Shown: piece by piece, positions 6,647-44,071 of the stretch | How the letters are laid out: each line of letters begins with the position of its first letter | Position numbering within the stretch: position 1 is the first letter of the stretch | Assembly (NCBI RefSeq): GCF_014636865.1 | Contig: NZ_BMER01000001.1 | Span: 2,096,718-2,160,717 of the forward strand | Direction of reading: 5' to 3' | DNA: 64,000 nucleotides | Source of the DNA: Parapedobacter pyrenivorans | Lineage (GTDB): Bacteria > Bacteroidota > Bacteroidia > Sphingobacteriales > Sphingobacteriaceae | The notes under the pieces: generated by a model | What the model was told of the DNA's origin: nothing | Seen by the model: only the letters and a program-made list of their open reading frames with translations | Databases searched by the model: none | Program-made: the position numbers and the translations under genes

Positions 6647-6707
6647 TGGTAAGAACGCACGCTTTCTTCTTGTTTGTCATTTAAAATAAGTGCGAATACC
6701 AAGTATT

Positions 6708-6772
6708 GATATAATTTGACCACAAAGAGGCAACATACCGCGGTTTTCCTAAAGCTGAGTGGTCTATTTTTG
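6708..6772 (+). promoter_or_regulatory. Operator copy A plus promoter for the GH43 pair
   Basis: A 40-bp operator-like block (6708-6747) has half-site GATATAATTTGAC at 6708 and a second half-site GGCAACATACCG at 6729, 21 bp further on. It ends in CGCGGTTTT. After exactly 17 bp comes TATTTTTG (6765-6772), a perfect TAnnTTTG -7 box. No TTG lies at the usual -33 distance, which fits an activator-dependent promoter. Three more copies occur in this window with the same geometry. Confidence 0.8.
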
Positions 6773-7850: not shown

Positions 7851-8938
7851 TTTTTTTATTCAATGCCAAAGAAATGCTGATTTACAGTTTTTTTGCCGCT
7901 TCACTGCTATTGGCGGGCTGCAATGCGCAGCCGGATACCGACGATATCGGGCAGCCGGATACGACTGAAGTAATCCAATACACCAATCCTGTCTTCGAAC
8001 CGATCTTAGCCGACCCATCTGTAATCCGCGATCCGAACTCGGGCCAATTCTATGCCTACGGCACCCAAGATGATTGGGGCGACGGCCAGGGTAGCCGATT
8101 GATCCCCATTTTGAAGTCGACAGATCTGGTATCTTGGAAGGTGTCGGGCCAAGCCTTCACTGCAAAACCTACGTGGAAAAACAACGGGGGCTTATGGGCG
8201 CCGGATGTGAATCACATCGATGGCAAATACTACCTATACTATTCCTATTCCACGTGGGGCGACCCAAATCCGGGCATCGGCGTGGCTGTTGCAGACCATC
8301 CGGCCGGTCCATTTACAGACCATGGCAAGCTTTTCACCAGTGAAGAGGTTGATGTTCCTAATTCGATTGACCCTTGCTATTTCGAAGAGCATGGCGAAAA
8401 ATATCTGTTTTGGGGAAGTTTTAGCAATGCACCTACACAAGGCACTTATGGAGTGCCGTTGGCTGGCGACGGCCTGTCGGTACCCGACCTCACCCGTAAA
8501 TTCAAAATCGCCGCGGGCGATTTCGAAGCAGTGATGATTCATAAAAAGGAAGGCCATTACTATTTCTTCGGTTCTAAAGGGAGTTGCTGCGACGGCGCTG
8601 AAAGCCAATACCACGTGCTGGTTGCACGGTCTACAAGCCTTGCGGGGCCATACCTAGACAAAAATGGAAACGATATCGCCGAGCGCGGTAACGGCACCCT
8701 GCTCTTAAAGGGCAATGAACGTATTGTAGGCCCCGGTCATAATGCTCGCATCGTTACCGATAGTGAGGGAACCGATTGGCTCCTCTACCATGGAATTGAT
8801 CCGTCGCGAGGTAAGGCGGCAAGCGGCGCGAGCCGACGCATGTTGATGCTTGATAAACTGACGTGGCGCAACGGTTGGCCGGAGATTGCCGGCGGCATAC
8901 CCAGCACGACGCAACAAGACGCGCCGGTGTTTCAATGA
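7847..8938 (+). CDS. GH43 endo-arabinanase-like lipoprotein
   Basis: GH43 enzyme most like arabinan endo-1,5-alpha-L-arabinosidases. The leader ends in LLLAGC with the lipidation Cys at residue 25; an internal ATG at 7874 would still keep the lipobox. Triad candidates are Asp56 in LADPSVI, the Asp in NSIDPCYF and the Glu in GDFEAVMI. The motif GSKGSCCDG followed by YHVLVARS is typical of arabinanase subfamilies, as is GPGHNARIV. Overlap of 4 bp with the upstream GH43 indicates one transcript. Its last 7 bases overlap the end of the convergent AraC gene. The endo-arabinanase call is by motif only. Confidence 0.85.
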   Translation: MIFLFNAKEMLIYSFFAASLLLAGCNAQPDTDDIGQPDTTEVIQYTNPVFEPILADPSVIRDPNSGQFYAYGTQDDWGDGQGSRLIPILKSTDLVSWKVSGQAFTAKPTWKNNGGLWAPDVNHIDGKYYLYYSYSTWGDPNPGIGVAVADHPAGPFTDHGKLFTSEEVDVPNSIDPCYFEEHGEKYLFWGSFSNAPTQGTYGVPLAGDGLSVPDLTRKFKIAAGDFEAVMIHKKEGHYYFFGSKGSCCDGAESQYHVLVARSTSLAGPYLDKNGNDIAERGNGTLLLKGNERIVGPGHNARIVTDSEGTDWLLYHGIDPSRGKAASGASRRMLMLDKLTWRNGWPEIAGGIPSTTQQDAPVFQ

Positions 8939-9834
8939 TACTGATGGTAGGGTTCAATGGCCATTTTCTGGTATTCGCTGCGATATTGGTGGGGCTGTTT
9001 GCCGGTGACTTTCTTGAATTGTTTGTTGAAGTTGGTGACCGACTGAAATCCGCATTCGTAACCGATACGGTCGATATTCATCTTGTCTTCCTTCAGGAGC
9101 TTGCAGGCATATTCGATGCGGATTTCCTTGAGAAAGTCTGAAAAGGACTGATTGACACGCGATTTGAAGTACCTGCTGAACGAGGTACACGTCATGCTGG
9201 CAATCGAGGCAACGTCTTCCAGGTTGATTTTTTGCTGGAAGTTTTTCATGATATATTCGTATACCTTGTTCATGCGATCCGTCTCGACTTCGGTATTGTA
9301 TGATTTTGAATGGGTATCGGTGATCAGCTGGCATTCGTCGGACAGTGCGATGGTGTTCAGGATGCGGAGCAGTTGGATAATGCTTTCCGCCCCTTTCAGG
9401 TGCAGTAGTTCATTCATCAGCTGACCAACCTGCCGCTGTGTTTTGCCCGCGATTTCGATGCCGCATTGTGAACGCTGGAAAAGATGCCTGATGCTTTCAA
9501 ACTCTTCCTTATTCTCAATCGTTTCGCCCAGAAAATGATCGTGGAAGTAAATAACAACAACGGTGGTGCTGAGTGTACTGTCTTTCTCGAAATAGGGATT
9601 ATGGCTACGCCACACATGCGGTAGGTTAGGACCAATGAGTACCAAGTCCTCAGCTTTAAACGGTTTGATGCTGTCGCCCACAAAACGGTTACCCTCACCT
9701 TCCATGACGTAAGATAACTGGAATTCGGGGTGCAAGTGGAAGGTGGGATCAAAATAAGGTTCGACCTGCTTTCGTACCACGAACGAACGATTGTCAGGAA
9801 TCAGTGCCTTGGGAATAATGTGGGTTTTCTTCAT
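8932..9834 (-). CDS. AraC-family transcriptional regulator with cupin-type sensor domain
   Basis: 300 aa, start ATG at 9834 (minus strand). The N-terminal cupin-like AraC-binding domain (about residues 15-110) has FDPTFHLHPEFQLSYVMEGE and PFKAEDLVLIGPNLPHVW. The C-terminal pair of helix-turn-helix motifs (about 190-290) includes INLEDVASIASMTCTSFSRY and IGYECGFQSVTNFNKQF, the AraC/XylS signature. A cytoplasmic ligand-responsive activator is expected. It is divergent from the operon starting at 9966. A minus-strand -7 box TATGTTTG is read at 9862-9855. The shared 78-bp gap holds operator copy B. AraC-type proteins bind direct repeats about two helical turns apart, which matches the 21-bp half-site spacing, so it is a good candidate for the regulator of all four copies (inference). 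Confidence 0.92.
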   Translation of the reverse strand: MKKTHIIPKALIPDNRSFVVRKQVEPYFDPTFHLHPEFQLSYVMEGEGNRFVGDSIKPFKAEDLVLIGPNLPHVWRSHNPYFEKDSTLSTTVVVIYFHDHFLGETIENKEEFESIRHLFQRSQCGIEIAGKTQRQVGQLMNELLHLKGAESIIQLLRILNTIALSDECQLITDTHSKSYNTEVETDRMNKVYEYIMKNFQQKINLEDVASIASMTCTSFSRYFKSRVNQSFSDFLKEIRIEYACKLLKEDKMNIDRIGYECGFQSVTNFNKQFKKVTGKQPHQYRSEYQKMAIEPYHQYH

Positions 9835-9854
9835 GATTTACCATTATAAGTAAG

Positions 9855-9862
9855 CAAACATA
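9855..9862 (-). promoter_or_regulatory. -7 promoter box for the AraC regulator gene
   Basis: On the minus strand this reads TATGTTTG, a match to TAnnTTTG, about 20 bp upstream of the AraC start codon. No convincing -33 TTG is seen at the expected distance, where operator copy B lies, so autoregulation is possible. Confidence 0.45.
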
Positions 9863-9871
9863 CAAAATTCG

Positions 9872-9936
9872 GATATAATTTGACTATAAAGGGATAATAT
9901 AACGCGGTTTTATGCTGGTTATCTATTCTACTTTTG
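9872..9936 (+). promoter_or_regulatory. Operator copy B plus promoter for the oxidative sugar operon
   Basis: The 40-bp block is 9872-9911: half-site GATATAATTTGAC at 9872, half-site GATAATATAACG at 9893 (21 bp apart), ending CGCGGTTTT. Seventeen bases later stands TACTTTTG (9929-9936), a perfect -7 box. This places transcription start near 9943, which rules out the open frame's first start at 9912 and supports the ATG at 9966. It sits between the divergent AraC gene and the operon it precedes. Confidence 0.82.
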
Positions 9937-9965: not shown

Positions 9966-12900
9966 ATGAGAATAATTTCCTATTTGTATATTGTCCTTTT
10001 TTGCCTGTTTTTTATCCAGTGCACGAGTAACGATCGTAATTATCCACGTCGTGCCGAGGTGCTGTTTTTGGGTAGCGCAGATGAATCCGTTGAGTCGGGT
10101 AAGTATGCATCGTGGTTAGCGATAGAGCTGTTCAAAAGCGGGATCAACCTCACGTACACGGCTGATGCTAATGACTTGAACAAGCAAAATCTGCGTGTAT
10201 ATGACGGGCTGGTTTTATTCGCGCTGCCCGAGTCCATATCTTCAGAGCAAGAAGGCGCTTTAAAAAGCTTTGTCGGAGACGGCAAAGGGCTAATAGCCCT
10301 GGGGGCTGCACCGGCTAACGGGCCAGCTTGGTATAGTAAGCTGGTTGAAGGGGCCACTCCGGAGGGAACTTCTGATAATGCGGGTTCCGATGCGATGAGT
10401 AGGTTGGTGAAGGGTGATGGCCGGGTATTTCAAACAGCTTCTGGAAGCGAGGAGTCTGTATGGAAGCAGTTAGACTTTCTACGGCAGGTCAACAGTGGTG
10501 TGCAATGGGCAATCGGTGACAAGGTGATGGGATTAGTCGCACAGTTGAAAATCCCGAGCGTCAGCATCTATCAAGATACCATTGCAGATTTCACCGCACG
10601 CCATTTCGTGCCAAAGATGCAGGATCCACTTTCGTCGGAAGAATCGAAGAAATTGATGCAGGTGCCTATCGGTTTCGAGCTGCAGTTGTTTGCCGCAGAG
10701 CCCGATATCGTCAATCCCATGGCCATGAGCTGGGATGAAAAAGGCCGGTTATGGATCATCGAGGCCATGGACTATCCCAACAATTTCGTGGAGCTGAAAG
10801 GAGAGTCAAACGACCGGATAAAGATCTGTGAAGATACGGATGGGGATGGCGTAGCGGATAAATTCACGGTTTTTGCCGACAAGCTGAACATTGCCACGAG
10901 CCTTACCTTTGCCAATGGTGGCGTTATCGTTGCCATGGCGCCAGACTTTATTTTCCTGAAAGATACAGATGGCGATGACGTGGCCGATTCAAGGGAGACT
11001 ATTATGACTGGATGGCGGAAAAACGACACGCATGCAGGGCCTTCCAATTTGCAGTACGGGTTTGACAACAAAATTTGGGGCGTTACGGGATATGCCGGCT
11101 TCGATGGTCAAATCGATGGCAAGCGGATGGCTTTTGCCCAAGGGGTATACCACTTCAAGCCAGACGGAACGGATTTCGAGTACTTGGCGACAACTAGTAA
11201 TAATACTTGGGGGCTGGGAATGACCGAAGATAACAATGTGTTTATCTCCACGGCAAACAATACCCACAGCGCGTTTTATTCCATGCCCGAGCAGTTGGTA
11301 CAGCGCCGGCTCCAGGAAGATGATCAGAAGCTCAATATCAACGCGGTGCAAAAGATCGATGGGCACTACGAAGTGCATGCCATGCAACCCAACCTCCGGC
11401 AGGTGGATGTGGTCGGTGGCTTTACATCAGCCGCAGGGCACCAGCTATACACGGCGCGTGATTATCCGCAAGCTTATTGGAATAAAGTGGCTTTCGTAAC
11501 CGAGCCTACGGTGCGGTTGATCCACAATGCTGTCATCGAACCCGACGGCGCAGGTTTTAAGGAACATGACGGGTGGAACTTGGTGGCCAGCTCGGACGAG
11601 TGGTTCGGCCCTGTACACGCGGAGGTTGGTCCGGATGGCGCTGTCTGGATACTCGATTGGTACAATTTCATCATCCAGCACAACGTCTTCGTACCTGCCC
11701 AAGCACCGTCCGATAAGGTGTTGCCTTTTGTCGATCAGCCACACGGCCCGGGTAATGCGTTCGAAAGCGATCTGCGCGACAAAAAGTACGGCCGGGTTTA
11801 TCGGTTAGTCTATAAAGATGCAATGCATAAATCATCGTATAAGCTTTCCAAAGACGATACGAATGGATTATTGAAGGCGTTAAAGAGTGATAACAAATTC
11901 TGGCGGATGCATGCCCAACGCCTCTTGGTCGAGCGGCAAAAAGATGATGTTGTAAGTGAACTGATTGGCATCGCATCGGACAAGAAAGTGGATAAAATTG
12001 GCCTGAATGCCCCGGCTATCCATGCACTTTGGACATTACAGGGATTGAACGTTATCGAATCGAATAAAGATGTATTCGACGCTGTAGTCAAGTCATTAAG
12101 CCACCCGTCTGCCGGTGTGCGCAAGGCAGCTGTTCAGGTACTTTCGATAAGTGATCAATCGAGGGATGCCATACTGGAAAGCGCAATATTGGCCGACACT
12201 GCGTTAAATACGCGATTGGCAGCGTTTGTCCGGTTAGCTGAGTATCCCGCCTCTGCCGAAATTGCCAATGCCTTGCTTGAGGCGACAAACGATAGCGTCA
12301 ACGAGCGCGACCGGTGGTTGTCGCAAGCATTGTTCGGAGCGATTGCAAGTCAAGAAGACGAGTTTTTCAACGTAGCTTCGCAAGCGAACGGCAGTTTTGC
12401 CAAGCGTATCGTCGAATCATTGGCTAATGAGCAATATGTGCTCGGCCGCCGCAGCCGTTTACAGTTTTCACCTGATGTATCGAACAAGGAAATCCATATC
12501 CAAACCGAAGTAAGCAGGCGTGAGAATCAGCCCTATAATGGTTTGATCGTAGGTCAGGGCGATAAATCCGAAGGCTATGCGCTTTACATGAAAAGCAACC
12601 GCGTGTTTTTCGAAGTCTATCAGCATGGCCAGACGGCTACTGTTTCCTCGCGCGGCAGTGTGCCCAGCACGTTTACCGTCGACGCACGGATGAGCGCGGA
12701 TGCAACAGTGGAGCTTTCCATAAACGGTACCAGCCAAGGTAAGGCAAAAGCCATGCATTTATTTGCTGCGCCACTGAAATTCAACCTGCGGTCGGGAGAG
12801 GATTTTGACGACGAACATGCGTTTACTGAATATGGCGAGTCGTCCAGGTTCACCGGCAACGTCAATAACATCACTGTACGGTTCTCGAAGAAAGACCATG

Positions 12901-13325
12901 CGGGTCACGATCAAGGTGCAGTGTCCGACGCGGGCAGTACAGCCCCTTCCGAACGTATTGAGATTAAGGCCGTAAAGGACATCATGCAGTATGATAAGAA
13001 GTCATTTACCGTGCAAGCAGGAAGACGGATTACACTGGTATTCGAAAACCCCGATGGTATGCAGCATAACATGCTGATCATACAGCCGGGTACATTGGAA
13101 ATCGTAGGTAAAGCGGCGGATGATATGTTACGCTCATCAGAAGCGTTTGATAAGCAATACATTCCGTCTATTCCCGAGGTGTTGCATCATACGCCATTGG
13201 TGAATCCCGGAGAAAGCTTTACGCTGGAGTTTACGGCTCCCGCTGAGCCAGGTGATTATCCGTATGTATGTACCTTCCCCGGGCATTGGCGGGGGATGAA
13301 TGGCATTATGCACGTTGTAAAATAG
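9966..13325 (+). CDS. Lipoprotein fusing ThuA-like, PVC-type dehydrogenase propeller, HEAT, LamG-like and azurin-like domains
   Basis: 1119 aa from the ATG at 9966. The frame is open up to 9912, but that would place the start before the promoter's -7 box. The leader ends FFIQC (lipidation Cys). Domains by rough residue: a ThuA-like N-terminal domain (about 28-150); the PVC-type membrane-bound dehydrogenase beta-propeller (about 230-590; FELQLFAAEPDIVNPMAMSW, ICEDTDGDGVADKFTVFADK); HEAT-like helices (about 620-850); a LamG-like jelly roll (about 860-1000); and a C-terminal cupredoxin with His1034, Cys1102, His1107 and Met1111 in the azurin-like CTFPGHWRGM. Related proteins usually carry a CxxCH haem motif, and none is present here. 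Likely role: periplasmic sugar oxidation with electrons leaving through type-1 copper (inference). First gene of a five-gene operon. Confidence 0.82.
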   Translation: MRIISYLYIVLFCLFFIQCTSNDRNYPRRAEVLFLGSADESVESGKYASWLAIELFKSGINLTYTADANDLNKQNLRVYDGLVLFALPESISSEQEGALKSFVGDGKGLIALGAAPANGPAWYSKLVEGATPEGTSDNAGSDAMSRLVKGDGRVFQTASGSEESVWKQLDFLRQVNSGVQWAIGDKVMGLVAQLKIPSVSIYQDTIADFTARHFVPKMQDPLSSEESKKLMQVPIGFELQLFAAEPDIVNPMAMSWDEKGRLWIIEAMDYPNNFVELKGESNDRIKICEDTDGDGVADKFTVFADKLNIATSLTFANGGVIVAMAPDFIFLKDTDGDDVADSRETIMTGWRKNDTHAGPSNLQYGFDNKIWGVTGYAGFDGQIDGKRMAFAQGVYHFKPDGTDFEYLATTSNNTWGLGMTEDNNVFISTANNTHSAFYSMPEQLVQRRLQEDDQKLNINAVQKIDGHYEVHAMQPNLRQVDVVGGFTSAAGHQLYTARDYPQAYWNKVAFVTEPTVRLIHNAVIEPDGAGFKEHDGWNLVASSDEWFGPVHAEVGPDGAVWILDWYNFIIQHNVFVPAQAPSDKVLPFVDQPHGPGNAFESDLRDKKYGRVYRLVYKDAMHKSSYKLSKDDTNGLLKALKSDNKFWRMHAQRLLVERQKDDVVSELIGIASDKKVDKIGLNAPAIHALWTLQGLNVIESNKDVFDAVVKSLSHPSAGVRKAAVQVLSISDQSRDAILESAILADTALNTRLAAFVRLAEYPASAEIANALLEATNDSVNERDRWLSQALFGAIASQEDEFFNVASQANGSFAKRIVESLANEQYVLGRRSRLQFSPDVSNKEIHIQTEVSRRENQPYNGLIVGQGDKSEGYALYMKSNRVFFEVYQHGQTATVSSRGSVPSTFTVDARMSADATVELSINGTSQGKAKAMHLFAAPLKFNLRSGEDFDDEHAFTEYGESSRFTGNVNNITVRFSKKDHAGHDQGAVSDAGSTAPSERIEIKAVKDIMQYDKKSFTVQAGRRITLVFENPDGMQHNMLIIQPGTLEIVGKAADDMLRSSEAFDKQYIPSIPEVLHHTPLVNPGESFTLEFTAPAEPGDYPYVCTFPGHWRGMNGIMHVVK

Positions 13326-13357
13326 CGCACTAACTGATAATACTAAATTTTTCACGA

Positions 13358-14065
13358 ATGAACAAGATGACGAAACTATTGGCAGGATTTGCCCTGCTGT
13401 TGATGACCACGGGTATGGCGGTAGCGCAGAAACCCCTCCGGATTTTGATGGTGGGCGGCGGCGGATCCCATGATTTCGGTCGGTGGTATGGCCAGGAAGA
13501 TAAAAAGACCATCGAATCGACCGGAAAGTATAGCGTGACGTATACCGAAGTGACAGACTCCATACCGGCCTATCTGAAGCAGGCTGATCTCTTGATTTTG
13601 ACCAACAATCAACCGATTGCCGCCGAAGGACAGCAAGCCATCACCAAATTCGTCGAAAAAGGACATGGGCTGTTACTATTGCATGCCGCAGTATGGTATA
13701 ACTGGGCGGACTGGCCGGCGTACAACCTCAATTATGTAGGGGGTGGTAGTAAAAGCCATGAAAAGCTTCAGGATATAAAAAACTTTGTTGTTAACTCGGG
13801 ACATCCGATTACACAAGGCGTTCCGGCCAAGTTTGATTTTGTGGATGAGTTGTATCGGTTCGTGCCAGACCCGGCTGCGAAGGGGATTGAGGTATTGGTC
13901 ATTGGCCAATCCAAGGAAACCGACGCCGTTTTCCCAGGCGTATTCACGGTAAAACACAAGAAGGCAAAAATTGCCGGAATTACAACCGGCCACGATGAGC
14001 GTAGCCACGAACATGAAGCCTATAGGGCATTATTGATCAATGCCGTTAACTGGATTGCAAACTAA
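13358..14065 (+). CDS. ThuA domain protein, secreted
   Basis: 235 aa with a clear type I signal peptide (about residues 1-23, ending MAVAQ). The ThuA fold (class I glutamine-amidotransferase-like) is recognised from RILMVGGGGSHDFGRWY, ADLLILTNNQPIAAEGQQA, GHGLLLLHAAVWYNW and the C-terminal HEHEAYRALLINAVNWI. ThuA proteins are known from trehalose utilisation in rhizobia, where ThuA and the dehydrogenase ThuB act on keto-sugar intermediates. It lies 32 bp downstream of the PVC/cupredoxin gene, which itself has a ThuA-like N-terminus, and directly upstream of a Gfo/Idh-type oxidoreductase. That supports a shared keto-sugar pathway. The exact reaction is unknown. Confidence 0.85.
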   Translation: MNKMTKLLAGFALLLMTTGMAVAQKPLRILMVGGGGSHDFGRWYGQEDKKTIESTGKYSVTYTEVTDSIPAYLKQADLLILTNNQPIAAEGQQAITKFVEKGHGLLLLHAAVWYNWADWPAYNLNYVGGGSKSHEKLQDIKNFVVNSGHPITQGVPAKFDFVDELYRFVPDPAAKGIEVLVIGQSKETDAVFPGVFTVKHKKAKIAGITTGHDERSHEHEAYRALLINAVNWIAN

Positions 14066-14100
14066 CTGGAAAGTATAATTAGCTAAATAAGAATCAGAAC

Positions 14101-15210
14101 ATGTCAAAAATTACTGTCGTTATCGTAGGTATGGGATTTGGGAAAGAGTTTATTCCCATTTATCAGAAACACCCCAATATCAAAGCCGTAGGAATCTGTA
14201 CCCGGAACGAAAATACACTTAATGAACTAAAAGAGAAGTTCAACCTGGATGAGGATTTGCTTTTCACCGACTTCAATGAAGTGGTGAAACGGGACGATGT
14301 GGACGCCATCCATGTGGTCACTCCCGTTCCGGAACACGCACAGATGACGTTGGCATCGTTGAACGCCAATAAGCATACGGCATGTACCATCCCGATGGCC
14401 ATGACGGTGGAAGATTGCGAAGCGATAGTCGCTGCCAAGCGCAAGTCGGGCAAGGTATACATGATGATGGAAACAGCACTGTATACCCGTGAGTTCCTTT
14501 ATGGATTGAAATTGGCCGAGACGGGGCAATTGGGCAAAATCCAGTTTGTCCGCGGATCCCACATCCAAGATATGAGTATGGACGGATGGGCTGAGTATTG
14601 GAAAGGCTATCCGCCCATGTTGAATGGTACGCACGCGATATCACCGCTATTGCGCATCAATAACACCATTGCAGAGTCTGTGGTTTGCCATGGTTCCGGT
14701 AGGCTATCCGACGATTTGGCGAGCCGCTACAATGCACCATACGCCGTAGAGACGGCTACATTCAAGTTGAAGGATTCGGATGTGGTAGCAGAAGCGACGC
14801 GTTCGCTGTTTGATGTAGTGCGTCAGTATCGCGAAAGCTACGACGTGTACGGCACGAAAATGTCATTTGAATGGGAGCAGTTGCAAGACGAAGAGCATGT
14901 GATTTTTGATGGTGGTGAAAACGCCAGACGGATTGACGTGCCGGATACCGATGAATTATTGATTCCGGAAATCGCTGATTTCACCAAGCGGGAGAAAATT
15001 GACGATCCCAATCACGTGTCGTTCCTACAGGGAGCAGGACATGGCGGTTCGCATCCGCACTTGGTACAGGAGTTTGTTGCAGCGATCGTAGAAGGCAGAG
15101 ATTCGGCCGTAGATGCTGCAAAGGCAGCCAATTATACGTGCGCCGGGATTTGCGCACACGAATCGGCGATGAAAGGTGGGATACGGGTAGAAATACCAAG
15201 TTTTGAATAA
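14101..15210 (+). CDS. Gfo/Idh/MocA-family oxidoreductase with altered EKP motif
   Basis: 369 aa with no leader, so cytoplasmic. An N-terminal Rossmann fold (VVIVGMGFGKEF, then AVGICTRN) and the Gfo/Idh C-terminal alpha/beta domain are visible (NGTHAISPLLRINNT, GHGGSHPHLVQEFVAAIVEG). The family normally has an E-K-P motif whose Lys is catalytic. The corresponding place (HTACTIPMA, residues 92-100) reads Thr96-Ile97-Pro98, so that Lys is missing. Either the protein belongs to a variant subfamily with a different mechanism, or it is not a dehydrogenase. It is located 35 bp after ThuA and 15 bp before the epimerase-like gene. NAD(P)-dependent conversion of a keto-sugar or polyol is the generic expectation. 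Confidence 0.88.
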   Translation: MSKITVVIVGMGFGKEFIPIYQKHPNIKAVGICTRNENTLNELKEKFNLDEDLLFTDFNEVVKRDDVDAIHVVTPVPEHAQMTLASLNANKHTACTIPMAMTVEDCEAIVAAKRKSGKVYMMMETALYTREFLYGLKLAETGQLGKIQFVRGSHIQDMSMDGWAEYWKGYPPMLNGTHAISPLLRINNTIAESVVCHGSGRLSDDLASRYNAPYAVETATFKLKDSDVVAEATRSLFDVVRQYRESYDVYGTKMSFEWEQLQDEEHVIFDGGENARRIDVPDTDELLIPEIADFTKREKIDDPNHVSFLQGAGHGGSHPHLVQEFVAAIVEGRDSAVDAAKAANYTCAGICAHESAMKGGIRVEIPSFE

Positions 15211-15225
15211 ATAGGTTTGCAGAAG

Positions 15226-16071
15226 ATGACCATAGGAATAAGCACATTTGTTTGGGTTTCACCCTTTTCCACGCAATCCTTCGATGTCTTGCGTAAGGCC
15301 AAAGCCATGGGCTATGACCTGATCGAGATTGCCGTGGAAGACCGGAACCTGATTGATTGGAATGCGTTGAAGAAAACATGCCAAGAGTTGAATTTGAAGA
15401 TTTCGGTGAGCGGGGCCTTTGGTATGGACCGGGATATTTCCAGTGATCAGCCCGAAAACCGGGCAAATGGGCTTTCCTATATCATCGATTGCCTGGAGAT
15501 TGCCCATGAAATGGAAAGCCCCGTTTTCGGCGGACCACTTTATTCGGCAGTTGGAAAGACCAGGCTGGTCTCCGCGGAGCAAAAGAAACAAGAGCGGCAA
15601 TGGTGTTTGGAGAACCTCCATGAAGCCACCAAGCGTGCGGAAGAGCTTGGGGTGACCCTAGCGTTGGAACCGCTAAATCGATTTGAAACCGACATGGTCA
15701 ATACCGTAGATCAGGCCATTTCGATTGTCGATGAGGTGAATCACCCGTATTTGAAGATCTTACTGGATACCTTCCATAGCAATATTGAAGAGAAAAACAT
15801 CCCAGCAAGTATCCGCAAACTTGGGGATAGGCTGATCCATGTACAAGCCAATGAAAGTGATCGCGGAACACCGGGCACAGGCCATTTGGATTGGCTAGGG
15901 ATACGTGATGCATTTCAAGACATCGGGTATCGGGGTAGCCTGGTCATTGAGACCTTTGGCGCACCCTCGAAAGAATTAGCTAGAGCAGCTAGCATATGGC
16001 GGCCATTGGCCAACAGTGCAGATGAATTAGCTGAGGAGGGTTTCGCATTTTTAAAACAAACGTTTTGTTAA
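15226..16071 (+). CDS. Sugar isomerase/epimerase, D-psicose/D-tagatose 3-epimerase-like TIM barrel
   Basis: 281 aa from the ATG at 15226; the frame also permits a TTG at 15217, which I consider less likely. A cytoplasmic xylose-isomerase-like TIM barrel. The metal-binding set of the ketose 3-epimerase family is visible: Glu148 (ALEPLNRFE), Asp181 (LLDTFHSNIEE), His205 (IHVQANESDRG) and Glu242 (VIETFG). The LDTFHxNIEE and RGTPGxGHLDW patterns are characteristic of that family. Length also fits. Lying between a Gfo/Idh protein and an enolase-superfamily protein, it probably epimerises a free keto-sugar or keto-acid. The substrate cannot be stated from sequence. Confidence 0.88.
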   Translation: MTIGISTFVWVSPFSTQSFDVLRKAKAMGYDLIEIAVEDRNLIDWNALKKTCQELNLKISVSGAFGMDRDISSDQPENRANGLSYIIDCLEIAHEMESPVFGGPLYSAVGKTRLVSAEQKKQERQWCLENLHEATKRAEELGVTLALEPLNRFETDMVNTVDQAISIVDEVNHPYLKILLDTFHSNIEEKNIPASIRKLGDRLIHVQANESDRGTPGTGHLDWLGIRDAFQDIGYRGSLVIETFGAPSKELARAASIWRPLANSADELAEEGFAFLKQTFC

Positions 16072-16162
16072 CGGTCGTCCGTTAGCGGCTAAGCATAAAA
16101 TTCCCGTCGTCATCGCGAACGTGATACCGGCGTAAAAATTTAACCATTAAAACACCACTATT

Positions 16163-17371
16163 ATGAGGAGAAGGGAATTTATTTACACATTGAATGCAGG
16201 CGTAGCAGCAAGTTTGCTGTCTAAAACAGCGATTGGCGGTGTATTTCAGGGTGGGGCGGGAGTGGGCCGTATGCAAGAGGAATTAGCCTACCACAAGATA
16301 CAATCGGTAACGTTTGACGATGTACGGATGCAGTATCCGCGTTTTGTCGGAAAAAATGCGCGGTTGGACGTGCATGGATTTGGACCTCGGCTCGGCATAT
16401 GCACCATCACCACGGATAAAGGCGCAAAAGGCTGGGCTTCGCTGCGGGGCGGCCGTAATGAGGCACAGCGTCTCGTTACGGAACTGGTCGGCAAAAAACT
16501 GTCGGACGTATTCAAGGTCAATGTCGGCATTACGGATGATCGTTACCTACCATTCGATATCGCCTTGCATGATCTTGCCGGTGTCGCATTAAACAAACCG
16601 GTATACGCGTTGTTGGGCCGTGATAAGCCATTTACCACCAAGTACTACAGCGGTATGATTTATTTCGACGATCTGGAGCCCGCTCATGCACCCGGAGGTA
16701 TCGATAAGGTACTTGCAAACTGTCGCTATGATTACGACTATGGCTACCGCCAATTCAAATTGAAAATCGGTCGAGGGCATCGCTGGATGGCCCAAAAAGA
16801 AGGATTAGCGCGGGATATTGAAGTCACCAAAGCCGTTGCCAAAGCTTTTCCCGATTGCGAGATTTTGGTAGATGGCAACAATGGGTTCACGATAAATGAA
16901 TTTACGGCATACCTCGAGGGAATCGGTAATACACCGCTTTTCTGGATTGAGGAACCGTTTCATGAAACCGTTGAAGATTACCGCAAGCTCCGTGAATGGA
17001 TGGCAAAGGCAAACGTAAAGAGCCTGCTTGCAGAAGGCGAAGCCGATCCGGATCCCGCGTTGTTGGATACGCTGATGCAGCAAAAACTCATGGATGTACA
17101 CATTTCCGACATCGAGGGCCTTGGGTTTACCAATTGGCGGAAACTGATGCCATCATTGATTCAATACGGTGTACAAGCATCTCCGCATGCATGGGGCTCG
17201 CTCTTAAAATCATTTTATACCGCCCATATGGCCGGTGGTTTGGGAAATACAGTAACGATCGAAGGTGTAACGAGCACTTCGGACGACGTAGATCTCAGTC
17301 GGTATGTGATCAAGGATGGGAACCTGATCCCACCTGACGCACCGGGATTTGGGCTGGAATTACTGCGGTAG
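16163..17371 (+). CDS. Enolase-superfamily (mandelate racemase/muconate lactonising) enzyme with Tat-like leader
   Basis: 402 aa. Catalytic pieces of the superfamily are present: KxK motif Lys199/Lys201 (FKLKIGRG), metal ligands Asp237 (LVDGNNG), Glu263 or Glu264 (WIEEPF) and Glu291 (LAEGE), a further Asp in HISDIEG, and His342 (SPHAWGS). This set fits acid-sugar dehydratases or racemases that abstract the proton alpha to a carboxylate. Residues 1-7 read MRRREFI, followed by a hydrophobic stretch, a twin-arginine-type export signal. Export is odd because the two preceding enzymes are cytoplasmic. It is the last gene of the operon, 92 bp after the epimerase-like gene; I see no clear new promoter in that gap. 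Confidence 0.87.
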   Translation: MRRREFIYTLNAGVAASLLSKTAIGGVFQGGAGVGRMQEELAYHKIQSVTFDDVRMQYPRFVGKNARLDVHGFGPRLGICTITTDKGAKGWASLRGGRNEAQRLVTELVGKKLSDVFKVNVGITDDRYLPFDIALHDLAGVALNKPVYALLGRDKPFTTKYYSGMIYFDDLEPAHAPGGIDKVLANCRYDYDYGYRQFKLKIGRGHRWMAQKEGLARDIEVTKAVAKAFPDCEILVDGNNGFTINEFTAYLEGIGNTPLFWIEEPFHETVEDYRKLREWMAKANVKSLLAEGEADPDPALLDTLMQQKLMDVHISDIEGLGFTNWRKLMPSLIQYGVQASPHAWGSLLKSFYTAHMAGGLGNTVTIEGVTSTSDDVDLSRYVIKDGNLIPPDAPGFGLELLR

Positions 17372-17519: not shown

Positions 17520-20500
17520 ATGAGTAAAGCTTTACTTGTAACATTGTTATGGTGCGTTGGACTATCCATAGCAATGGCCCAGACCCGGTCTGTCACCGGG
17601 ACCGTGAGGGACGCGGAGGGCGGTACCCCCATCGGCAGCGCGACCATCAAGGCGATGGTCAGCCAGCGCACCACGTCGAGCTCGGCCGATGGTACCTTCT
17701 CCATTGATGTGGCATCCGGTGGAGATTCCCTTTTGGTTACTTATATTGGCTACGATCAGACCGTAGTGCCTGTAAGCGCTAACGCTAGCAATGTGACGAT
17801 CGACCTGACTTCATCTTCTGAAGCATTGGAAGAAGTTATTGTAACCGGTTTCGGTATGGCGCAGAAAAAGGAGACGTTGACGGGTGCCATTTCCTCTATT
17901 GGTGCCGACGACATCAGCCGATCATTAGCCTCCACCACTTCCGGTGCATTGGTGGGAAAGATGCCTGGGTTGAACTTCCGGCAGACGGATGGTCGGCCGG
18001 GGTCATCCACCGCTATCCAAATCCGAAATATGGGCACTCCGCTGTATGTCATCGATGGTGTCCAGAAAGACGCCGGCCAGTTTAATAATTTGGATTTCAA
18101 CGACATTGAATCCATCACCATCCTAAAGGATGCGTCTGCTGCGATCTACGGCGTACGGGCGGCAAACGGTGTCGTTGTTGTGACCACTAAACGGGGTAAG
18201 CAGAATACAAAGAACACAATCAGTTTGACATCCAACTACGGCTTCCAGAACTTGTCTACATTTCCGAAGCCCGCAGATGCGGTGACGTATGTAGAAAGCT
18301 ATATTCAGTCAGAAACCGTACAAGAGGTCGGCAACTATCGGTATACGCCCGAAGATTTGACCAAATGGCGGCAAGGCACCGAAAAAGGGTACGTACCGTT
18401 TGATTGGTATGATTACATTTGGGAAACCTCACCGCAGGTTTACGTCAACGCCAACGTATCCGGCGGATCCGACAAAATCAACTACTATTTCAGTTTGGGG
18501 CACCTCAACCAGAATGACGTTATTGTGAACTATGGCGGTTTCAAGCGTACGAACGTACAAATGAACATCACCGCGCAGATTTCTGATCGTTTCCGGGTAG
18601 GAGCCAACTATAACGCCCGCCACGAGTTTCGGAAAAACCCTGGTGTGCCGGGTGGTGATGACTTGTGGTTACCACGCTACGGTACATTCCGCAACCTGCC
18701 CACGGTACGCCCATTTGCAAACGATAATCCGTTGTACCCCACGCTGACTTCTACCGATCCGGGTACGAACTTCGGCTGGTTGAATTACGACTTGTCGGGT
18801 GAGCGTACGGAGACCTGGCGGGTTAGTCAGCTCAACTTCGATGCGGAGTACGATATCGTTGACGGGCTGAAAGCCAAAGCATTGGTGGGTTATTATTTTG
18901 CAAACCAACGGATGGACAATCATGAGTTTACCTACAAGTTGTACGGTTATGACGAAGCTACGGATACTTATCCGGTGATTTTCGAGAACAACAACCCTTG
19001 GCGCGAGCGTCGGATGGGCCACGTAGAGGAAATAACCTCCAATGTGCAGCTGAACTATAACAAGTCATTCGGATCACATAATCTTTCGGTAATTGGCGGT
19101 GTGGAAAGTATTCTTCGTAAAACGCCCACCACCTGGTTGCATTCTATTCCAACCTCCAATGCGTTGGAGCTTGTTTATTTTGAAACGATGGATACGTACG
19201 ATGACGAGGGTGACAATCCGCAGGCGCGCTTGGGTTACATTGGTAAAGTGAACTACGATTATAACGGAAAATACCTGCTTGAGTTGTTGGGCCGTTATGA
19301 CGGTTCCTGGAAATTCCCGACCAATGACCGTTGGGGCTTCTTCCCCGCGGCATCTGCAGGATGGCGGATTTCGCAGGAATCGTTCTGGCAAGATAGCAAA
19401 ATTGCAAATATTGTCAATGATCTGAAAATCAGGGGGTCATTCGGTCTGGTTGGCGATGACAACACTGCGGGCTATAATCCCTTTGATTACCTCGGCGGTT
19501 ATAATTACAAAAGATTCCGTAATGCCAATGGCGATTGGGTGAATGTCGCCTCGTCGGTAATCGATGGCGAGTACCTCATCGGTGCACAGCCTCGGGGACT
19601 TCCGGTAACCACATTGTCATGGCTGCGTGCAGAGATGACCAATATCGGTTTTGACGCGGCGTTTCTCCGTAATCGATTGACGACGACCGTCGAATTCTTC
19701 CAACGCAAACGTACAGGACTTCCTGCTTCACGTTATGACGTGTTGATACCTAAAGAAGTTGGTTTCAATTTACCGAATGAGAACTTGAATTCCGATATGC
19801 ACCGCGGTTATGAGGCGGTGGTGCGTTGGGCTGACCGTGCGGGCGAATTGAACTATTCACTGGGGGGTAATATAACGTTTTCCCGCTTTTATGATTGGGA
19901 TCGGTACAAACCCCGTTTTAGTAACTCGGTAGATGAGTATCGGAATTCCCTTGTGCAACGTTATGGTTATTTGAATTGGGGATTACAATCCGACGGGCAA
20001 TTCCAAAGCTGGGATGAGATTGCAGAATGGCCAATTGATAATGATCGCCAAGGTAACCGTACATTACGCCCTGGTGACGTCAAATACAAAGATTTGAACG
20101 GTGATGGGGTAATCAATGGGTTGGATGAACGTCCGATTGGGTATCGTCGTGACTCGACACCGGCACTGAACTTCGGGCTGAATTTTGCCTTTGCTTACAA
20201 AGGCTTTGATTTGGGGCTCGACTTCTCGGGTGGCGCGATGTATACTTTCTACAAGGAACATGAAATGCGTACACCTTTCCAAAACGGTGGTAACATTCCT
20301 CAGTACTATGCGGATGATGCTTGGAAGCTGTCCGACATCTGGGATGCCAATAGTGAATTGATTCCGGGTAAATACCCGATGTTATTGATTGGCAACGGCG
20401 CACATAGTAATTACTGGAACAGTGATTTCTGGAAGCAAAAAATCCGTTATATTAAACTTCGTAACTTGGATTTCGGGTATTCGTTGCCGTCTCATATTTT

Positions 20501-20660
20501 GGAACCGCTTTCTATCACGGGTGTACGAGTGTACTTTTCTGGACAAAACTTGCTTACGTTCACCAACTTGATCGGTATAGATCCCGAAACGCAGGATACG
20601 AACGGTTTGGGTTATCCTACTTATCGGATTATGAACTTCGGAATCAACGTGAGGTTTTAG
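17520..20660 (+). CDS. SusC/RagA-type TonB-linked outer-membrane transporter
   Basis: 1046 aa with signal peptide MSKALLVTLLWCVGLSIAMA. Domains: carboxypeptidase-regulatory-like (about 21-100, RSVTGTVRDAEGGTPIGSA), TonB box and plug (EEVIVTGFGMAQKKETLTG, MGTPLYVIDGVQKDAG, ILKDASAAIYGVRAANG), then the beta-barrel ending NFGINVRF. No STN domain. Its plug and domain organisation closely parallel the SusC at 29111, and the following SusD and DUF3823 genes are paralogous too. A tract of roughly 110 bp (about 17577-17690) in the first domain is visibly much richer in G+C than the rest of the gene, hinting at recombination. The 148-bp upstream gap shows no copy of the 40-bp operator and no clear TAnnTTTG box. 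Confidence 0.95.
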   Translation: MSKALLVTLLWCVGLSIAMAQTRSVTGTVRDAEGGTPIGSATIKAMVSQRTTSSSADGTFSIDVASGGDSLLVTYIGYDQTVVPVSANASNVTIDLTSSSEALEEVIVTGFGMAQKKETLTGAISSIGADDISRSLASTTSGALVGKMPGLNFRQTDGRPGSSTAIQIRNMGTPLYVIDGVQKDAGQFNNLDFNDIESITILKDASAAIYGVRAANGVVVVTTKRGKQNTKNTISLTSNYGFQNLSTFPKPADAVTYVESYIQSETVQEVGNYRYTPEDLTKWRQGTEKGYVPFDWYDYIWETSPQVYVNANVSGGSDKINYYFSLGHLNQNDVIVNYGGFKRTNVQMNITAQISDRFRVGANYNARHEFRKNPGVPGGDDLWLPRYGTFRNLPTVRPFANDNPLYPTLTSTDPGTNFGWLNYDLSGERTETWRVSQLNFDAEYDIVDGLKAKALVGYYFANQRMDNHEFTYKLYGYDEATDTYPVIFENNNPWRERRMGHVEEITSNVQLNYNKSFGSHNLSVIGGVESILRKTPTTWLHSIPTSNALELVYFETMDTYDDEGDNPQARLGYIGKVNYDYNGKYLLELLGRYDGSWKFPTNDRWGFFPAASAGWRISQESFWQDSKIANIVNDLKIRGSFGLVGDDNTAGYNPFDYLGGYNYKRFRNANGDWVNVASSVIDGEYLIGAQPRGLPVTTLSWLRAEMTNIGFDAAFLRNRLTTTVEFFQRKRTGLPASRYDVLIPKEVGFNLPNENLNSDMHRGYEAVVRWADRAGELNYSLGGNITFSRFYDWDRYKPRFSNSVDEYRNSLVQRYGYLNWGLQSDGQFQSWDEIAEWPIDNDRQGNRTLRPGDVKYKDLNGDGVINGLDERPIGYRRDSTPALNFGLNFAFAYKGFDLGLDFSGGAMYTFYKEHEMRTPFQNGGNIPQYYADDAWKLSDIWDANSELIPGKYPMLLIGNGAHSNYWNSDFWKQKIRYIKLRNLDFGYSLPSHILEPLSITGVRVYFSGQNLLTFTNLIGIDPETQDTNGLGYPTYRIMNFGINVRF

Positions 20661-20689
20661 TAGGTTAAATATTATAAAAAAAAAGAATT

Positions 20690-22561
20690 ATGAAAAAGTC
20701 AAGCATATCCATATTCAAGGTGTTGGTGCTGGCGGTCGGACTAACTTCCTTCAGCGGTTGCTCCAACTTCTTAGAGCGCGAGCCAGACACGATATTGCCC
20801 GAAGAAGATATTTTCGGTGATGAAATATTGATCCAGTCAGTGCTATCTAACTTCTATGGTCGACTAACAAACGTGCCGAACACGGATCCGGTTATTACAT
20901 GGGGGCAACATATCGCCAATTCGTATCAGTATACGATATTGGATGAAGCAGGGAAATCTGATGGTGGCCCGGATGTGATGCAAAGTTACGCCAACAACCT
21001 TTGGCGAGTGTACGACTACGAGTTGATCCGCAACATGAACCAGTTTCTACAAGGGGTTCGTGCAACAACTGCACTCGATGATGAAAGAAAACTGCTCTAT
21101 GAAGGCGAGGTCCGTTTCCTTCGCGCGTGGGTGTATTTCAATATGGCGCGCGGTATGGGCGGTATGCCGATCGTGGGAGATGAGGTATTCGATCACCATG
21201 TGGGCATGGATGTAACGGCATTGCAATACCCCCGTTCTACGGAAGCTGGTATTTATGACTACATCATCACTGAATGCGAAACCATTTCGACAATGCTCGA
21301 CGATGCGCGGAATACCAATTCTGCACGCGCCAACAAATGGGTCGCGTTGATGTTGAAAGCTCGTGCTGCCATCTATGCAGGTTCATTAGCAAATTACAAC
21401 AACAAGATGTCTAGCCCGATTCGTACGGCTGGCGGTGAGGTTGGCATCGCTGCAAACTTAGCCGAGGGATATTACGAACAAGCCCTGACAGCGGCGGAAG
21501 ACGTCATCCAAAACAGTCCATATTCGTTGCAAATGAGAAATGCAGAAGATCTGCAACGCAATTTTTACGAAGCGGTAAGCGTAAAGGATGGAAACACCGA
21601 AGTGATTTGGGCGCGGGACCATAAATATCCCGGTACTGGTCAGCAGGTTAATTTTACGACCATCAACATCCCCGGATCCCACGCCGAAGACATCGATCGC
21701 GCGTATGCCGGCCCACTGCTGAACTTGGTTGAAGATTATGAATACGCAGACAACCGTAACGGTGATATCCGTATCCGCGATGCGCAGGGTGATTATGTTT
21801 TTTACGACAGTCCCTTGGATGCCTTTGCAAACAAAGATGCCCGATTAGGTGGTACGGTAATTTTACCGAATGCACTTTTCAAGGGGGATCCAGTAACGCT
21901 GCAAGCCGGACAAAAAGTGTGGAACAATGGTGCTTGGCAGACCGTTACCGGAGCTCCTGGATCTATGCAAGGAGGACGGCTGGTCACTGCCTCCAACGGG
22001 CCAAACCGTACCAACGACGTCTATATCAATAAAACAGGCTTTTTCTTCCGTAAATTTTTGGACGAAGCGTCTGGAGCATCTACCCGCGGGCGTAATAGTG
22101 AGATGTGGTTTCCCCGTTTCCGTTTTGCCGAAGCGGTGCTGATTGCGGCTGAAGCAGCCATGGAATTGGGCAGGCAGCCGGTAGCTGTCGAGTACATCAA
22201 TCAAGTTCGCGAACGAGCAGGCATCCAGCCGTTGGCTTCCGTGACGTTGGATGACATTATCCAAGAACGACGGGTCGAATTTGCGTTTGAAGATCATCGT
22301 TACTGGGACCTGAAGCGATTCCGTCGCGCGCACATTGTCTGGAATGGTGAAGTTAATAGCCCAACTGCTCAACAGTGGGCGTTATTCCCCTACTTAGTAG
22401 TTGCTCCCGGTACAGCAAACGATGGCAAATACGTATTCGATAGGCTGACGTTTAGCAACTCGTTGCATCCCCGATTTTTTGAGTTGAGGAATTATTACAA
22501 CTTCATCGATCTGGAGTGGCAGAATGCAAATCCCAAGATTGTATTGAATCCGTTTCAATAA
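20690..22561 (+). CDS. SusD/RagB-type surface lipoprotein
   Basis: 623 aa, lipobox FSGC with Cys24. SusD features: N-terminal FLEREPDTILPEEDIFGDE, an early TPR-like segment (EGEVRFLRAWVYFNMARGMGG), and the C-terminal RERAGIQPLASV ... RRVEFAFEDHRYWDLKRFRR. Exactly as long as the SusD at 32239, with the same motif order. Starts 29 bp after its SusC. A glycan-binding role on the cell surface is expected. The last 46 bases of this gene overlap a longer frame of the following DUF3823 gene, but that gene's lipoprotein start lies after this stop. Confidence 0.95.
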   Translation: MKKSSISIFKVLVLAVGLTSFSGCSNFLEREPDTILPEEDIFGDEILIQSVLSNFYGRLTNVPNTDPVITWGQHIANSYQYTILDEAGKSDGGPDVMQSYANNLWRVYDYELIRNMNQFLQGVRATTALDDERKLLYEGEVRFLRAWVYFNMARGMGGMPIVGDEVFDHHVGMDVTALQYPRSTEAGIYDYIITECETISTMLDDARNTNSARANKWVALMLKARAAIYAGSLANYNNKMSSPIRTAGGEVGIAANLAEGYYEQALTAAEDVIQNSPYSLQMRNAEDLQRNFYEAVSVKDGNTEVIWARDHKYPGTGQQVNFTTINIPGSHAEDIDRAYAGPLLNLVEDYEYADNRNGDIRIRDAQGDYVFYDSPLDAFANKDARLGGTVILPNALFKGDPVTLQAGQKVWNNGAWQTVTGAPGSMQGGRLVTASNGPNRTNDVYINKTGFFFRKFLDEASGASTRGRNSEMWFPRFRFAEAVLIAAEAAMELGRQPVAVEYINQVRERAGIQPLASVTLDDIIQERRVEFAFEDHRYWDLKRFRRAHIVWNGEVNSPTAQQWALFPYLVVAPGTANDGKYVFDRLTFSNSLHPRFFELRNYYNFIDLEWQNANPKIVLNPFQ

Positions 22562-22578
22562 CCTTTATGATTACGATA

Positions 22579-23253
22579 ATGAAAAAATATGTAAATATGT
22601 TCTTGCTTCCCGCAGTAGTGGCGGTAAGCAGTTGCGGACTGGATAATTATGACGCACCGGAATCGACGATACGAGGACGGGTAGTCTATAATGGCGAACC
22701 GATAGGCGTGCGTGGTACAGGTGAGGCCGTGCAACTTCAGTTGTACCAAGATGGTTACGAATTGCGGAATCCGATTCAGGTATTTGTAACACAAGACGGT
22801 ACATTTGAAGCAAAAGTATTCGACGGAGAATACAAACTGGTAACGCGTGATAACAATGGCCCGTGGGTAAACGACCGAGATACAACCGTAGTTAATGTGA
22901 AAGGTACGGCAAATGTTGACAAAGAAGTAACGCCATTCTATACCTTGTCGAACGTGCAGCTTTCGTTAAATGGAAGCAGTGTCAATGCGTCTTTTCAGAT
23001 AGAAGAAGTAGCGGGTGGTAGAGACATTGAGTATGTATTGATATTGGTCGGTAAGACGTCTTTTGTCGACGACGTATCGAGTAATGGTCGACTTCGCATC
23101 GATGGCGTCACCGCCGGGACCACCGTCACCGGTACGGTTGACCTGACAGATAATGCCGATTTCAATGCAGGGAAACCTGTGTTTGCCCGCGTGGCGTTGC
23201 GGCCGGCAGGTAAAGACCAGGCGATTTATTCGCAGGTCGTAAGATTGCGATAA
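22579..23253 (+). CDS. DUF3823-type SusD-associated lipoprotein
   Basis: 224 aa from the ATG at 22579, chosen because it gives a compact lipoprotein leader ending AVSSC (Cys19); the frame is open further upstream into SusD. The pattern CGLDNYDAPESTIRGRVVYNGEPIGVR matches the DUF3823 family, short two-domain beta-sandwich lipoproteins found after SusC/SusD pairs. A surface glycan-binding or complex-stabilising role is presumed, not shown. A paralogue occupies the same place at 34123 (ELDNYDPPASPLNGRLVHN). A rho-independent terminator follows at 23275. Confidence 0.85.
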   Translation: MKKYVNMFLLPAVVAVSSCGLDNYDAPESTIRGRVVYNGEPIGVRGTGEAVQLQLYQDGYELRNPIQVFVTQDGTFEAKVFDGEYKLVTRDNNGPWVNDRDTTVVNVKGTANVDKEVTPFYTLSNVQLSLNGSSVNASFQIEEVAGGRDIEYVLILVGKTSFVDDVSSNGRLRIDGVTAGTTVTGTVDLTDNADFNAGKPVFARVALRPAGKDQAIYSQVVRLR

Positions 23254-23274
23254 GTAATAAAAAATCTTATCTTT

Positions 23275-23311
23275 AACCGTTGCCCGTCGTTGAGATGGGT
23301 AACGGTTTTTT
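23275..23311 (+). terminator. Rho-independent terminator after the SusC-SusD-DUF3823 genes
   Basis: Stem AACCGTTGCCC (23275-23285) pairs with GGGTAACGGTT (23296-23306, one mismatch) across a short loop. The run of T residues at 23305-23311 follows. It separates the DUF3823 gene from the macroglobulin-domain gene. Confidence 0.8.
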
Positions 23312-23385
23312 GCTTTCAGTGTATATTGATTCTCAAATGCGCTAGCCAATTGTCAATGACGTTGTTGTTGCATAAACCAGACCCA

Positions 23386-27187: not shown

Positions 27188-27512
27188 GTTAATATCTCCT
27201 TTCTATTTCCCTATAATCTCTCCTCATGTTTAATCCGTTGCCATGCTTTAGACAGGAGAAAACTGAGGTTACCTACAAAAATACGAAAAGTATTGGAGTT
27301 TAAAAGGTACCTGCGTATCCATTGAGGAAACCGAAAGTCTTTCAAAGAAATATGACAGATTGAACCTGTGCTGATAAAACATGATTTGCCATTTTGCTGT
27401 TGTTGATATTACAAAAAGGGGTATAATTTGACTACAAAGAGATAACATATCGTGGTTTTAAGGGGGCGTTACGGAGTATTTTTGTGATGCGACAATTATT
27501 AACCATCAATAC
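27188..27512. other. 325-bp divergent intergenic region: toxin-antitoxin promoter and sulfatase promoter
   Basis: No gene seen. Reading leftwards, a minus-strand TATTTTTG box (27283-27276) is a likely -7 element for the antitoxin-toxin pair. Reading rightwards, operator copy C and its -7 box (27420-27484) precede the sulfatase, followed by the leader sequence CAATTATTAACC. The remaining bases show nothing I can name. Confidence 0.6.
27420..27484 (+). promoter_or_regulatory. Operator copy C plus promoter for the lone sulfatase
   Basis: The 40-bp block is 27420-27459: half-site GGTATAATTTGAC at 27420 and half-site GATAACATATCG at 27441, 21 bp apart, ending CGTGGTTTT. Exactly 17 bases later is TATTTTTG (27477-27484), a perfect TAnnTTTG box. 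Same geometry as copies A, B and D. Confidence 0.82.
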
Positions 27513-43914: not shown

Positions 43915-43979
43915 GCATGGTAGTCATCGGACGCTTATCCCAAATTTGTCATTTCTTAACAAAAAAATGTGCAAATTAT

Positions 43980-44044
43980 GATATAATCTATCTATAAAGG
44001 GATAATATATCGCTGCTTTGCCTTTGCTTTCATACTTACTTTTG
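43980..44044 (+). promoter_or_regulatory. Operator copy D plus promoter for the ECF sigma operon
   Basis: The 40-bp block is 43980-44019: half-site GATATAATCTATC at 43980 and half-site GATAATATATCG at 44001, 21 bp apart, with a degenerate tail CGCTGCTTT. Again exactly 17 bases precede a TAnnTTTG box, TACTTTTG (44037-44044). The leader that follows contains CAATTATTAACC, shared with copy C. About 115 bp separate the box from the sigma-factor start. Confidence 0.78.
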
Positions 44045-44071
44045 TAATAAGGGCAATTATTAACCGTTTAC

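Follow-up and report, generated by a model that had tools for sequence, protein, structure and literature searches.

A conserved Bacteroidota carbohydrate cassette with a GH109-like Gfo/Idh/MocA protein and a propeller-blue-copper lipoprotein in Parapedobacter pyrenivorans

The five-gene operon and its conserved core

In a stretch of 64,000 nucleotides (nt) of Parapedobacter pyrenivorans DNA (the window; contig NZ_BMER01000001.1, positions 2,096,718 to 2,160,717), we analysed an operon of five collinear plus-strand genes with intergenic gaps of 32, 35, 6 and 91 bp (Table 1), four of these genes forming a core that is kept together across many Bacteroidota. According to Pfam and NCBIfam, the genes encode a lipoprotein with a DUF7133/TIGR02604 propeller, a ThuA-like N-terminus and a cupredoxin C-terminus (PVC-cupredoxin), a ThuA protein, a GFO_IDH_MocA protein (Gfo), an AP_endonuc_2 barrel resembling ketose 3-epimerases, and an enolase-superfamily protein (MR_MLE_C). 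GH43, GH2 and sulfatase genes surround the operon, which suggests that the target glycan is branched and sulfated, perhaps with arabinose or xylose. Coordinates, family names and the preceding operator copy B agree with the original prediction of five collinear genes with short gaps, and its tie to a polysaccharide regulon is upheld by an operator common to the GH43, sulfatase and sigma-factor genes.

Neighbourhood conservation was assessed at loci selected on the Gfo protein alone, with neighbours counted within 6.5 kb. In the orthologue clade, comprising 38 loci from Sphingobacteriaceae, Chitinophagaceae, Spirosomataceae/Cytophagaceae and Cyclobacteriaceae, the Gfo gene is accompanied by ThuA in 37, by PVC-cupredoxin in 35 and by the barrel in 33 loci, almost always on the same strand, with three of the misses being contig ends. 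A second clade (14 loci, about 50% identical, partly from the same genomes) has the barrel in 14, the PVC protein in 13 and an AraC gene in 10 loci, and a separate ThuA gene in none. The enolase-like gene stands beside Gfo at six of the 38 orthologous loci, all of them Parapedobacter, while relatives from the family's other genera sit away from the cassette genes. The predicted conservation of five neighbours thus holds for PVC-cupredoxin, ThuA, Gfo and barrel, and the enolase-like gene, originally counted among the core members, is a genus-specific member of the operon outside this core.

A major facilitator superfamily (MFS) permease gene recurs at varying operon positions in relatives (loci L046-L050, L052, L058, L060, L072, L080 and L138); for the window, the idea that the 91 bp between the barrel and enolase-like genes hold a remnant of such a gene was rejected, the open frame there being unlike an MFS C-terminus. 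The P. pyrenivorans genome itself holds a second cassette (L055, C1:640000-659000), about 50% identical, with AraC, barrel, Gfo and PVC-cupredoxin genes and neither a separate ThuA nor an enolase-like gene. Conservation within the cassette is uneven, with Gfo 85-90% identical among genera as opposed to only about 44-71% for its operon neighbours.

Regarding the gene starts, the long lipoprotein open reading frame has its first in-frame ATG at 9912, upstream of the -7 promoter box at 9929, and 9966 is therefore the better start, while for the barrel an in-frame ATG at 15226 is a likelier start than 15217. Because no terminator-like site was found in the 148-bp gap before the SusC gene (17520), the transcript may continue past the enolase-like gene into the SusC, SusD, DUF3823 and MG2-domain genes; six congeners likewise have SusC after the enolase-like gene.

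Table 1 Features of the operon and its surroundings, in window coordinates
Feature	Position	Strand	Basis or remark
Operator copy A	6673..6747	+	precedes two GH43 genes (6837, 7847)
AraC-family regulator (cupin and helix-turn-helix), divergent	8932..9834	-	Pfam HTH_18, AraC_binding
Operator copy B	9837..9911	+	precedes the five-gene operon
-7 promoter box TACTTTTG (TAnnTTTG)	9929..9936	+	starts 17 nt past operator copy B
Lipoprotein: ThuA-like domain, DUF7133 propeller, HEAT, ConA-like domain, auracyanin-type cupredoxin	9966..13325	+	Pfam/NCBIfam, AlphaFold2
Cupredoxin domain, residues ~994-1119	12945..13322	+	alignment, PDB matches
ThuA-domain protein	13358..14065	+	Pfam PF06283, 93 bits; Sec-type signal
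GHGG-type Gfo/Idh/MocA protein	14101..15210	+	cytosolic by sequence; orthologues 85-97% identical
H154 codon	14560..14562	+	position of AmGH109A Y226; invariant 100/100
H178 codon	14632..14634	+	position of AmGH109A H259; invariant 100/100
GHGG loop, residues 313-316	15037..15048	+	H314 at position of AmGH109A H404
Ketose-3-epimerase-like TIM barrel	15217..16071	+	AP_endonuc_2; cytosolic by sequence
Q210 codon	15844..15846	+	site of the metal-ligand His in D-psicose 3-epimerases
Enolase-superfamily protein, Tat-type leader	16163..17371	+	Pfam MR_MLE_C; genus-specific
SusC, SusD, DUF3823 and MG2-domain genes	17520..25995	+	gaps 148, 29, -46, 36 bp
Operator copy C	27385..27459	+	precedes a sulfatase gene (27513)
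Operator copy D, weakest	43945..44019	+	precedes a sigma-70-family/FecR pair (44159, 44771)

Operator, promoter box and candidate regulator

The four operator copies in the window belong to a 75-nt repeat (family D2), and a search of the whole 5.9-Mb genome with the operator core, allowing 3 mismatches, returned exactly these four, whereas a control pattern returned none. The Bacteroidota promoter box TAnnTTTG starts 17 nt after each of the four copies, and 55 nt from the core start in all 12 copies compared (four from this genome, eight from congeners), so that the site keeps a constant distance from the box in relatives too, as in a regulon with a common operator. Furthermore, the core was found in seven of nine Parapedobacter genomes and precedes the operon in all seven, the two genomes without it (G045 and G068) being the same two that lack an orthologous Gfo gene. 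Operator and box are a phylogenetic footprint, with the fixed promoter geometry of a predicted activator-type site. Since the copy before the operon is the sole one found in four congeners, the site's constant target is apparently the operon rather than the genes for the GH43 enzymes or the sulfatase. A scan for sigma-70-type promoters gave matches no commoner than in shuffled sequence.

The divergent AraC gene, which occupies the same position at each of the six congener loci that were read at length, with 85-92% identity, encodes the likeliest candidate regulator of these sites. A response regulator encoded in the window is the other candidate; it is not favoured, because a related response regulator occurs in G045, a genome with neither operator nor operon. 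In one congener, extra operator copies precede the SusC gene after the operon (L047:14324) and lie about 17 kb further on (G087:C56:165739). In the window, the weakest copy stands before the sigma factor/FecR-type pair (43945-45877), through which the regulon may feed a second layer of control.

Residue patterns and domain make-up of the encoded proteins

The Gfo protein has an N-terminal Rossmann domain (PF01408, 76.6 bits against a cut-off of 24). Among named genomes, those closest to the window are P. defluvii, P. indicus and P. koreensis, whose Gfo proteins are 95-96% identical. Across 100 aligned relatives, the lysine of the EKP motif is replaced by isoleucine or valine in all, a GHGG loop is present in 99, and E124, H154, H178 and H314 are invariant. 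This pattern recalls the NAD+-dependent glycosidases of families GH109 and GH188 (AmGH109A, SqgA), which have the same Gfo/Idh/MocA fold, a loop of the GHGG type and two positions for catalytic histidines, and GH109 likewise has no lysine at the E-K-P position. In an alignment with three GH109 proteins encoded by this genome, the GHGG-loop histidine corresponds to H314 and the second catalytic histidine to H178, and H154 stands where these have a tyrosine, the equivalence of H154 with Y226 of AmGH109A having been counted by hand along the alignment; the catalytic roles of these positions are described for AmGH109A (PMC10755693). The third position thus carries histidine in the window protein, tyrosine in GH109 and glutamate in GH188, and the Gfo differs further in having neither a match to the GH109 model PF21252 nor an export leader. 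Moreover, for its C-terminal half, hhalign gave a probability of 95.3 with GH109 versus 29.7, 11.2, 0.3 and 0.6 with four other Gfo sets, and the AlphaFold2 model (predicted local distance difference test, pLDDT, 87.9) has its best structural matches in GH109 (6t2b, Z 36.7; 2ixa, Z 36.3). The protein looks more like an NAD-dependent glycosidase than an ordinary dehydrogenase and, judged by its residues, may work in a GH109-like manner, yet we do not file it as a GH109 member.

Alternatively, Gfo could be an ordinary NAD-dependent sugar 3-dehydrogenase, or a 3-keto-sugar reductase, acting on the lipoprotein's product as LgdA/LgdC, DgpA or ThuB do. DgpA and glucose-fructose oxidoreductase are its best-scoring solved sequences, levoglucosan dehydrogenase lies no more than 2 Z units from the best structural match, and in Agrobacterium a sugar oxidase is arranged with a Gfo reductase and barrels. 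We consider this possible but somewhat unlikely, given the uniform loss of the EKP lysine and the far better match of the C-terminal half to GH109. The kinship with ThuB that had been proposed for Gfo is likewise not borne out: a ThuA domain adjoins a Gfo-family gene, as in the rhizobial ThuA-ThuB system of trehalose utilisation, but the window ThuA carries an export signal, and Gfo, lacking the dehydrogenase lysine and being of the GHGG type, reaches 22.5 bits with the disaccharide 3-dehydrogenase model (cut-off 650).

The propeller of the lipoprotein is that of the PVC-type heme-binding proteins, scoring 255.7 bits with TIGR02604 (cut-off 122.2), but unlike those proteins neither it nor its relatives have the CxxCH heme motif (0 of 53). 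A predicted type-1 copper domain stands in place of this heme, with the copper-ligand positions H1034, C1102, H1107 and M1111 nearly invariant (alignment A3) and auracyanin as the nearest structure (Z 20). In the AlphaFold2 model of the whole protein (pLDDT 72.9), the names HEAT and ConA-like are our own reading of the secondary structure. In Cyclobacteriaceae (L070, L073, L081, L082, L087) the cupredoxin has a gene of its own, immediately downstream of the propeller gene. Among the structures closest to the propeller are AA12 pyranose dehydrogenase, soluble glucose dehydrogenase (sGDH) and HHIP. The lipoprotein might accordingly be no oxidase at all, its propeller and ConA-like domains binding glycan and the cupredoxin serving another redox partner, an explanation that the HHIP match favours, as does the fact that no gene for pyrroloquinoline quinone (PQQ) synthesis was found in the genome. 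We regard it as quite unlikely, since a copper domain fused to a propeller of the sugar-dehydrogenase type, or encoded beside it as in Cyclobacteriaceae, points most naturally to a path for electrons. Relative to homologues outside the genus, the ThuA-like N-terminal domain of the lipoprotein appears shortened at window positions 10320-10450 in the same alignment.

The barrel has its closest matches among ketose 3-epimerases (E 4e-42), with D-psicose 3-epimerase NF051856 as the best NCBIfam match (188.9 bits against a cut-off of 300), and also matches the 3-keto-D-glucoside 4-epimerase 6wn6 (E 2e-16). Three of the four metal ligands (E151, D184, E245) and the acid/base positions are kept, and the fourth ligand, a histidine, has become Q210. 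By alignment, glutamine occupies this site in all 47 Bacteroidota cassette barrels, one of which (L062) has no PVC neighbour, and in one of 13 other barrels, the remaining 12 having histidine. The single exception, L134 on a Gemmatimonadota contig, is also the only one of the 13 beside a full PVC-cupredoxin protein, and in the trees its barrel groups with histidine-bearing Chloroflexota barrels with strong support. The two Bacteroidota Gfo clades are split by well-supported branches. The trees require that the combination of glutamine barrel and PVC-cupredoxin arose at least twice, and three origins appear likelier, although sampling is small and the barrel tree alone is compatible with one origin within Bacteroidota. 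The His-to-Gln change in the barrel was apparently repeated.

The changed metal ligand bears on the idea that Gfo and barrel form an epimerising pair on 3-keto-glycosides, which would oxidise, epimerise and reduce in turn, as the YcjS/YcjR pair of Escherichia coli does. The E. coli YcjQRS cluster, which contains two Gfo proteins, resembles the window in combining a Gfo protein with a 3-keto-glucoside epimerase barrel, a likeness that rests on the weak match to 6wn6, and differs in having no copper protein. The proximity of the barrel to ketose 3-epimerases and to 6wn6 and the retention of its other metal and acid/base positions agree with such a pair; the glutamine in every Bacteroidota cassette barrel and the single Gfo gene of the operon speak against it, and we hold it to be improbable.

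Export signals, assessed by eye, would place the products in different compartments. Neither Gfo nor barrel has one, while ThuA has a Sec-type signal and its relatives have Sec-type or lipoprotein-type signals. The enolase-like protein starts with MRRREFI, the relatives compared keep RRxF[IL], and the genome encodes TatC, which together suggest a twin-arginine (Tat) leader and hence that this protein is probably exported. Its nearest solved chain is 3n4f (E 2.6e-45), which we take to belong to a D-galacturonate dehydratase; among named dehydratase models the best score is 42.4 bits with arabinonate dehydratase (cut-off 650). The original prediction of a complete route that leads from a released sugar to a keto-acid and ends in an acid-sugar dehydratase, here taken with its steps in gene order, could draw on five collinear genes under one operator and on the enolase-superfamily identity and 3n4f match of the last gene. 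It is now highly unlikely: gene order does not fit as an order of steps, because the cytosol is the predicted place of Gfo and barrel while the enolase-like protein appears to be exported, and outside the genus the fifth gene is missing from the operon.

A proposed oxidative route and its meaning

We tentatively favour, as a possibility still short of an even chance, that the operon is an operator-controlled carbohydrate cassette for the oxidative handling of a sugar or glycoside freed by the surrounding polysaccharide genes, with the GH109-like Gfo as part of it. Gene order, operator, domain make-up, conservation and catalytic-residue patterns are read from sequence, and from them we infer the enzymatic steps. 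The lipoprotein propeller would oxidise the sugar outside the cytosol and pass the electrons to the fused blue-copper domain, and the oxidised product would then enter the cytosol, in relatives possibly via the operon-encoded MFS permease. There, the GHGG-type Gfo would act as a GH109-like NAD+ enzyme by transient ring oxidation, elimination and re-hydration rather than by simple dehydrogenation, with H314 and H178 as putative acid/bases and H154 at the position that would exchange the C2 proton. The HxQ epimerase-like barrel may rearrange or hydrate the keto-sugar intermediate. The ThuA protein has no step assigned in this scheme, the enolase-like protein would be a genus-specific, probably exported addition, and the AraC protein the likeliest regulator.

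Elimination and hydration by Gfo proteins together with isomerase-type barrels are described for the levoglucosan and Agrobacterium pathways (PMC7676230, PMC10628242). Like the window, the levoglucosan genes LgdA-LgdB1-LgdB2-LgdC and the Agrobacterium 3-keto-glycoside operon (AtOGE, AtHYD, Gfo) combine a Gfo-type enzyme with isomerase/epimerase-type TIM barrels and with the oxidation of a sugar; the window differs in its candidate oxidase, the propeller-blue-copper lipoprotein, in having one ketose-3-epimerase-type barrel and one GHGG Gfo, and in the additional ThuA. A literature search on DUF1080, ThuA with Gfo, and PVC-type proteins returned nothing relevant. In a bolder version, which we regard as rather doubtful, GHGG-type Gfo proteins would be NAD+-dependent glycosidases or lyases of a family so far unrecognised and would form, with the propeller-blue-copper oxidase and a barrel that repeatedly swapped histidine for glutamine to act on oxidised sugar, an oxidative pathway coupled to electron transport.

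Several points weigh against the favoured reading. The mechanism is a proposal from sequence and models for five proteins without known activity, and if the lipoprotein already yields a keto-sugar, the route could strictly do without a redox-neutral step by Gfo. GH109 leads other Gfo structures by merely about 1 Z unit, part of the GHGG loop has pLDDT below 50 in the model, and the Pfam GH109 C-terminal model PF21252 leaves Gfo unmatched even at E 10, whereas GH109 proteins of the same genome match it at E 1e-43 to 1e-85. The propeller fits HHIP, a non-enzyme, as well, and for PqqE only a weak genome match below cut-off was found, the same model also giving matches below cut-off in all 14 control genomes. 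An MFS gene is absent from the window's operon and has no close copy elsewhere in the genome. Finally, the cassette loci are of common ancestry, and the neighbourhood counts overstate their independence.

GHGG-type Gfo proteins were found in nine phyla, and their surroundings elsewhere hint at a link to pentose metabolism, with a XylR-type regulator nearby in Paenibacillus and Aquibacillus, and xylose isomerase and xylulokinase, both above their cut-offs, nearby at an Anaerolineae locus (L114). In Paenibacillus mendelii (L128, 7634-12007), the GHGG Gfo gene is followed by DUF6807 and 2-hydroxyacid-dehydrogenase-type genes, with the XylR-type regulator upstream.

Overall, the novelty here lies in a four-gene core whose Gfo is GH109-like, in a propeller protein with copper for heme, in the footprint at the promoter and in a His-to-Gln change that apparently happened repeatedly. 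Their proposed function is inferred. If the proposed route is true, a very common protein family without assigned function would gain a testable enzyme mechanism, while the operator delimits a small putative regulon and the repeated His-to-Gln change offers a single residue for testing whether oxidase and barrel have a common substrate. Polysaccharide degraders of soil and water would, in that case, gain an oxidative branch in which electrons pass from sugar to a copper protein.

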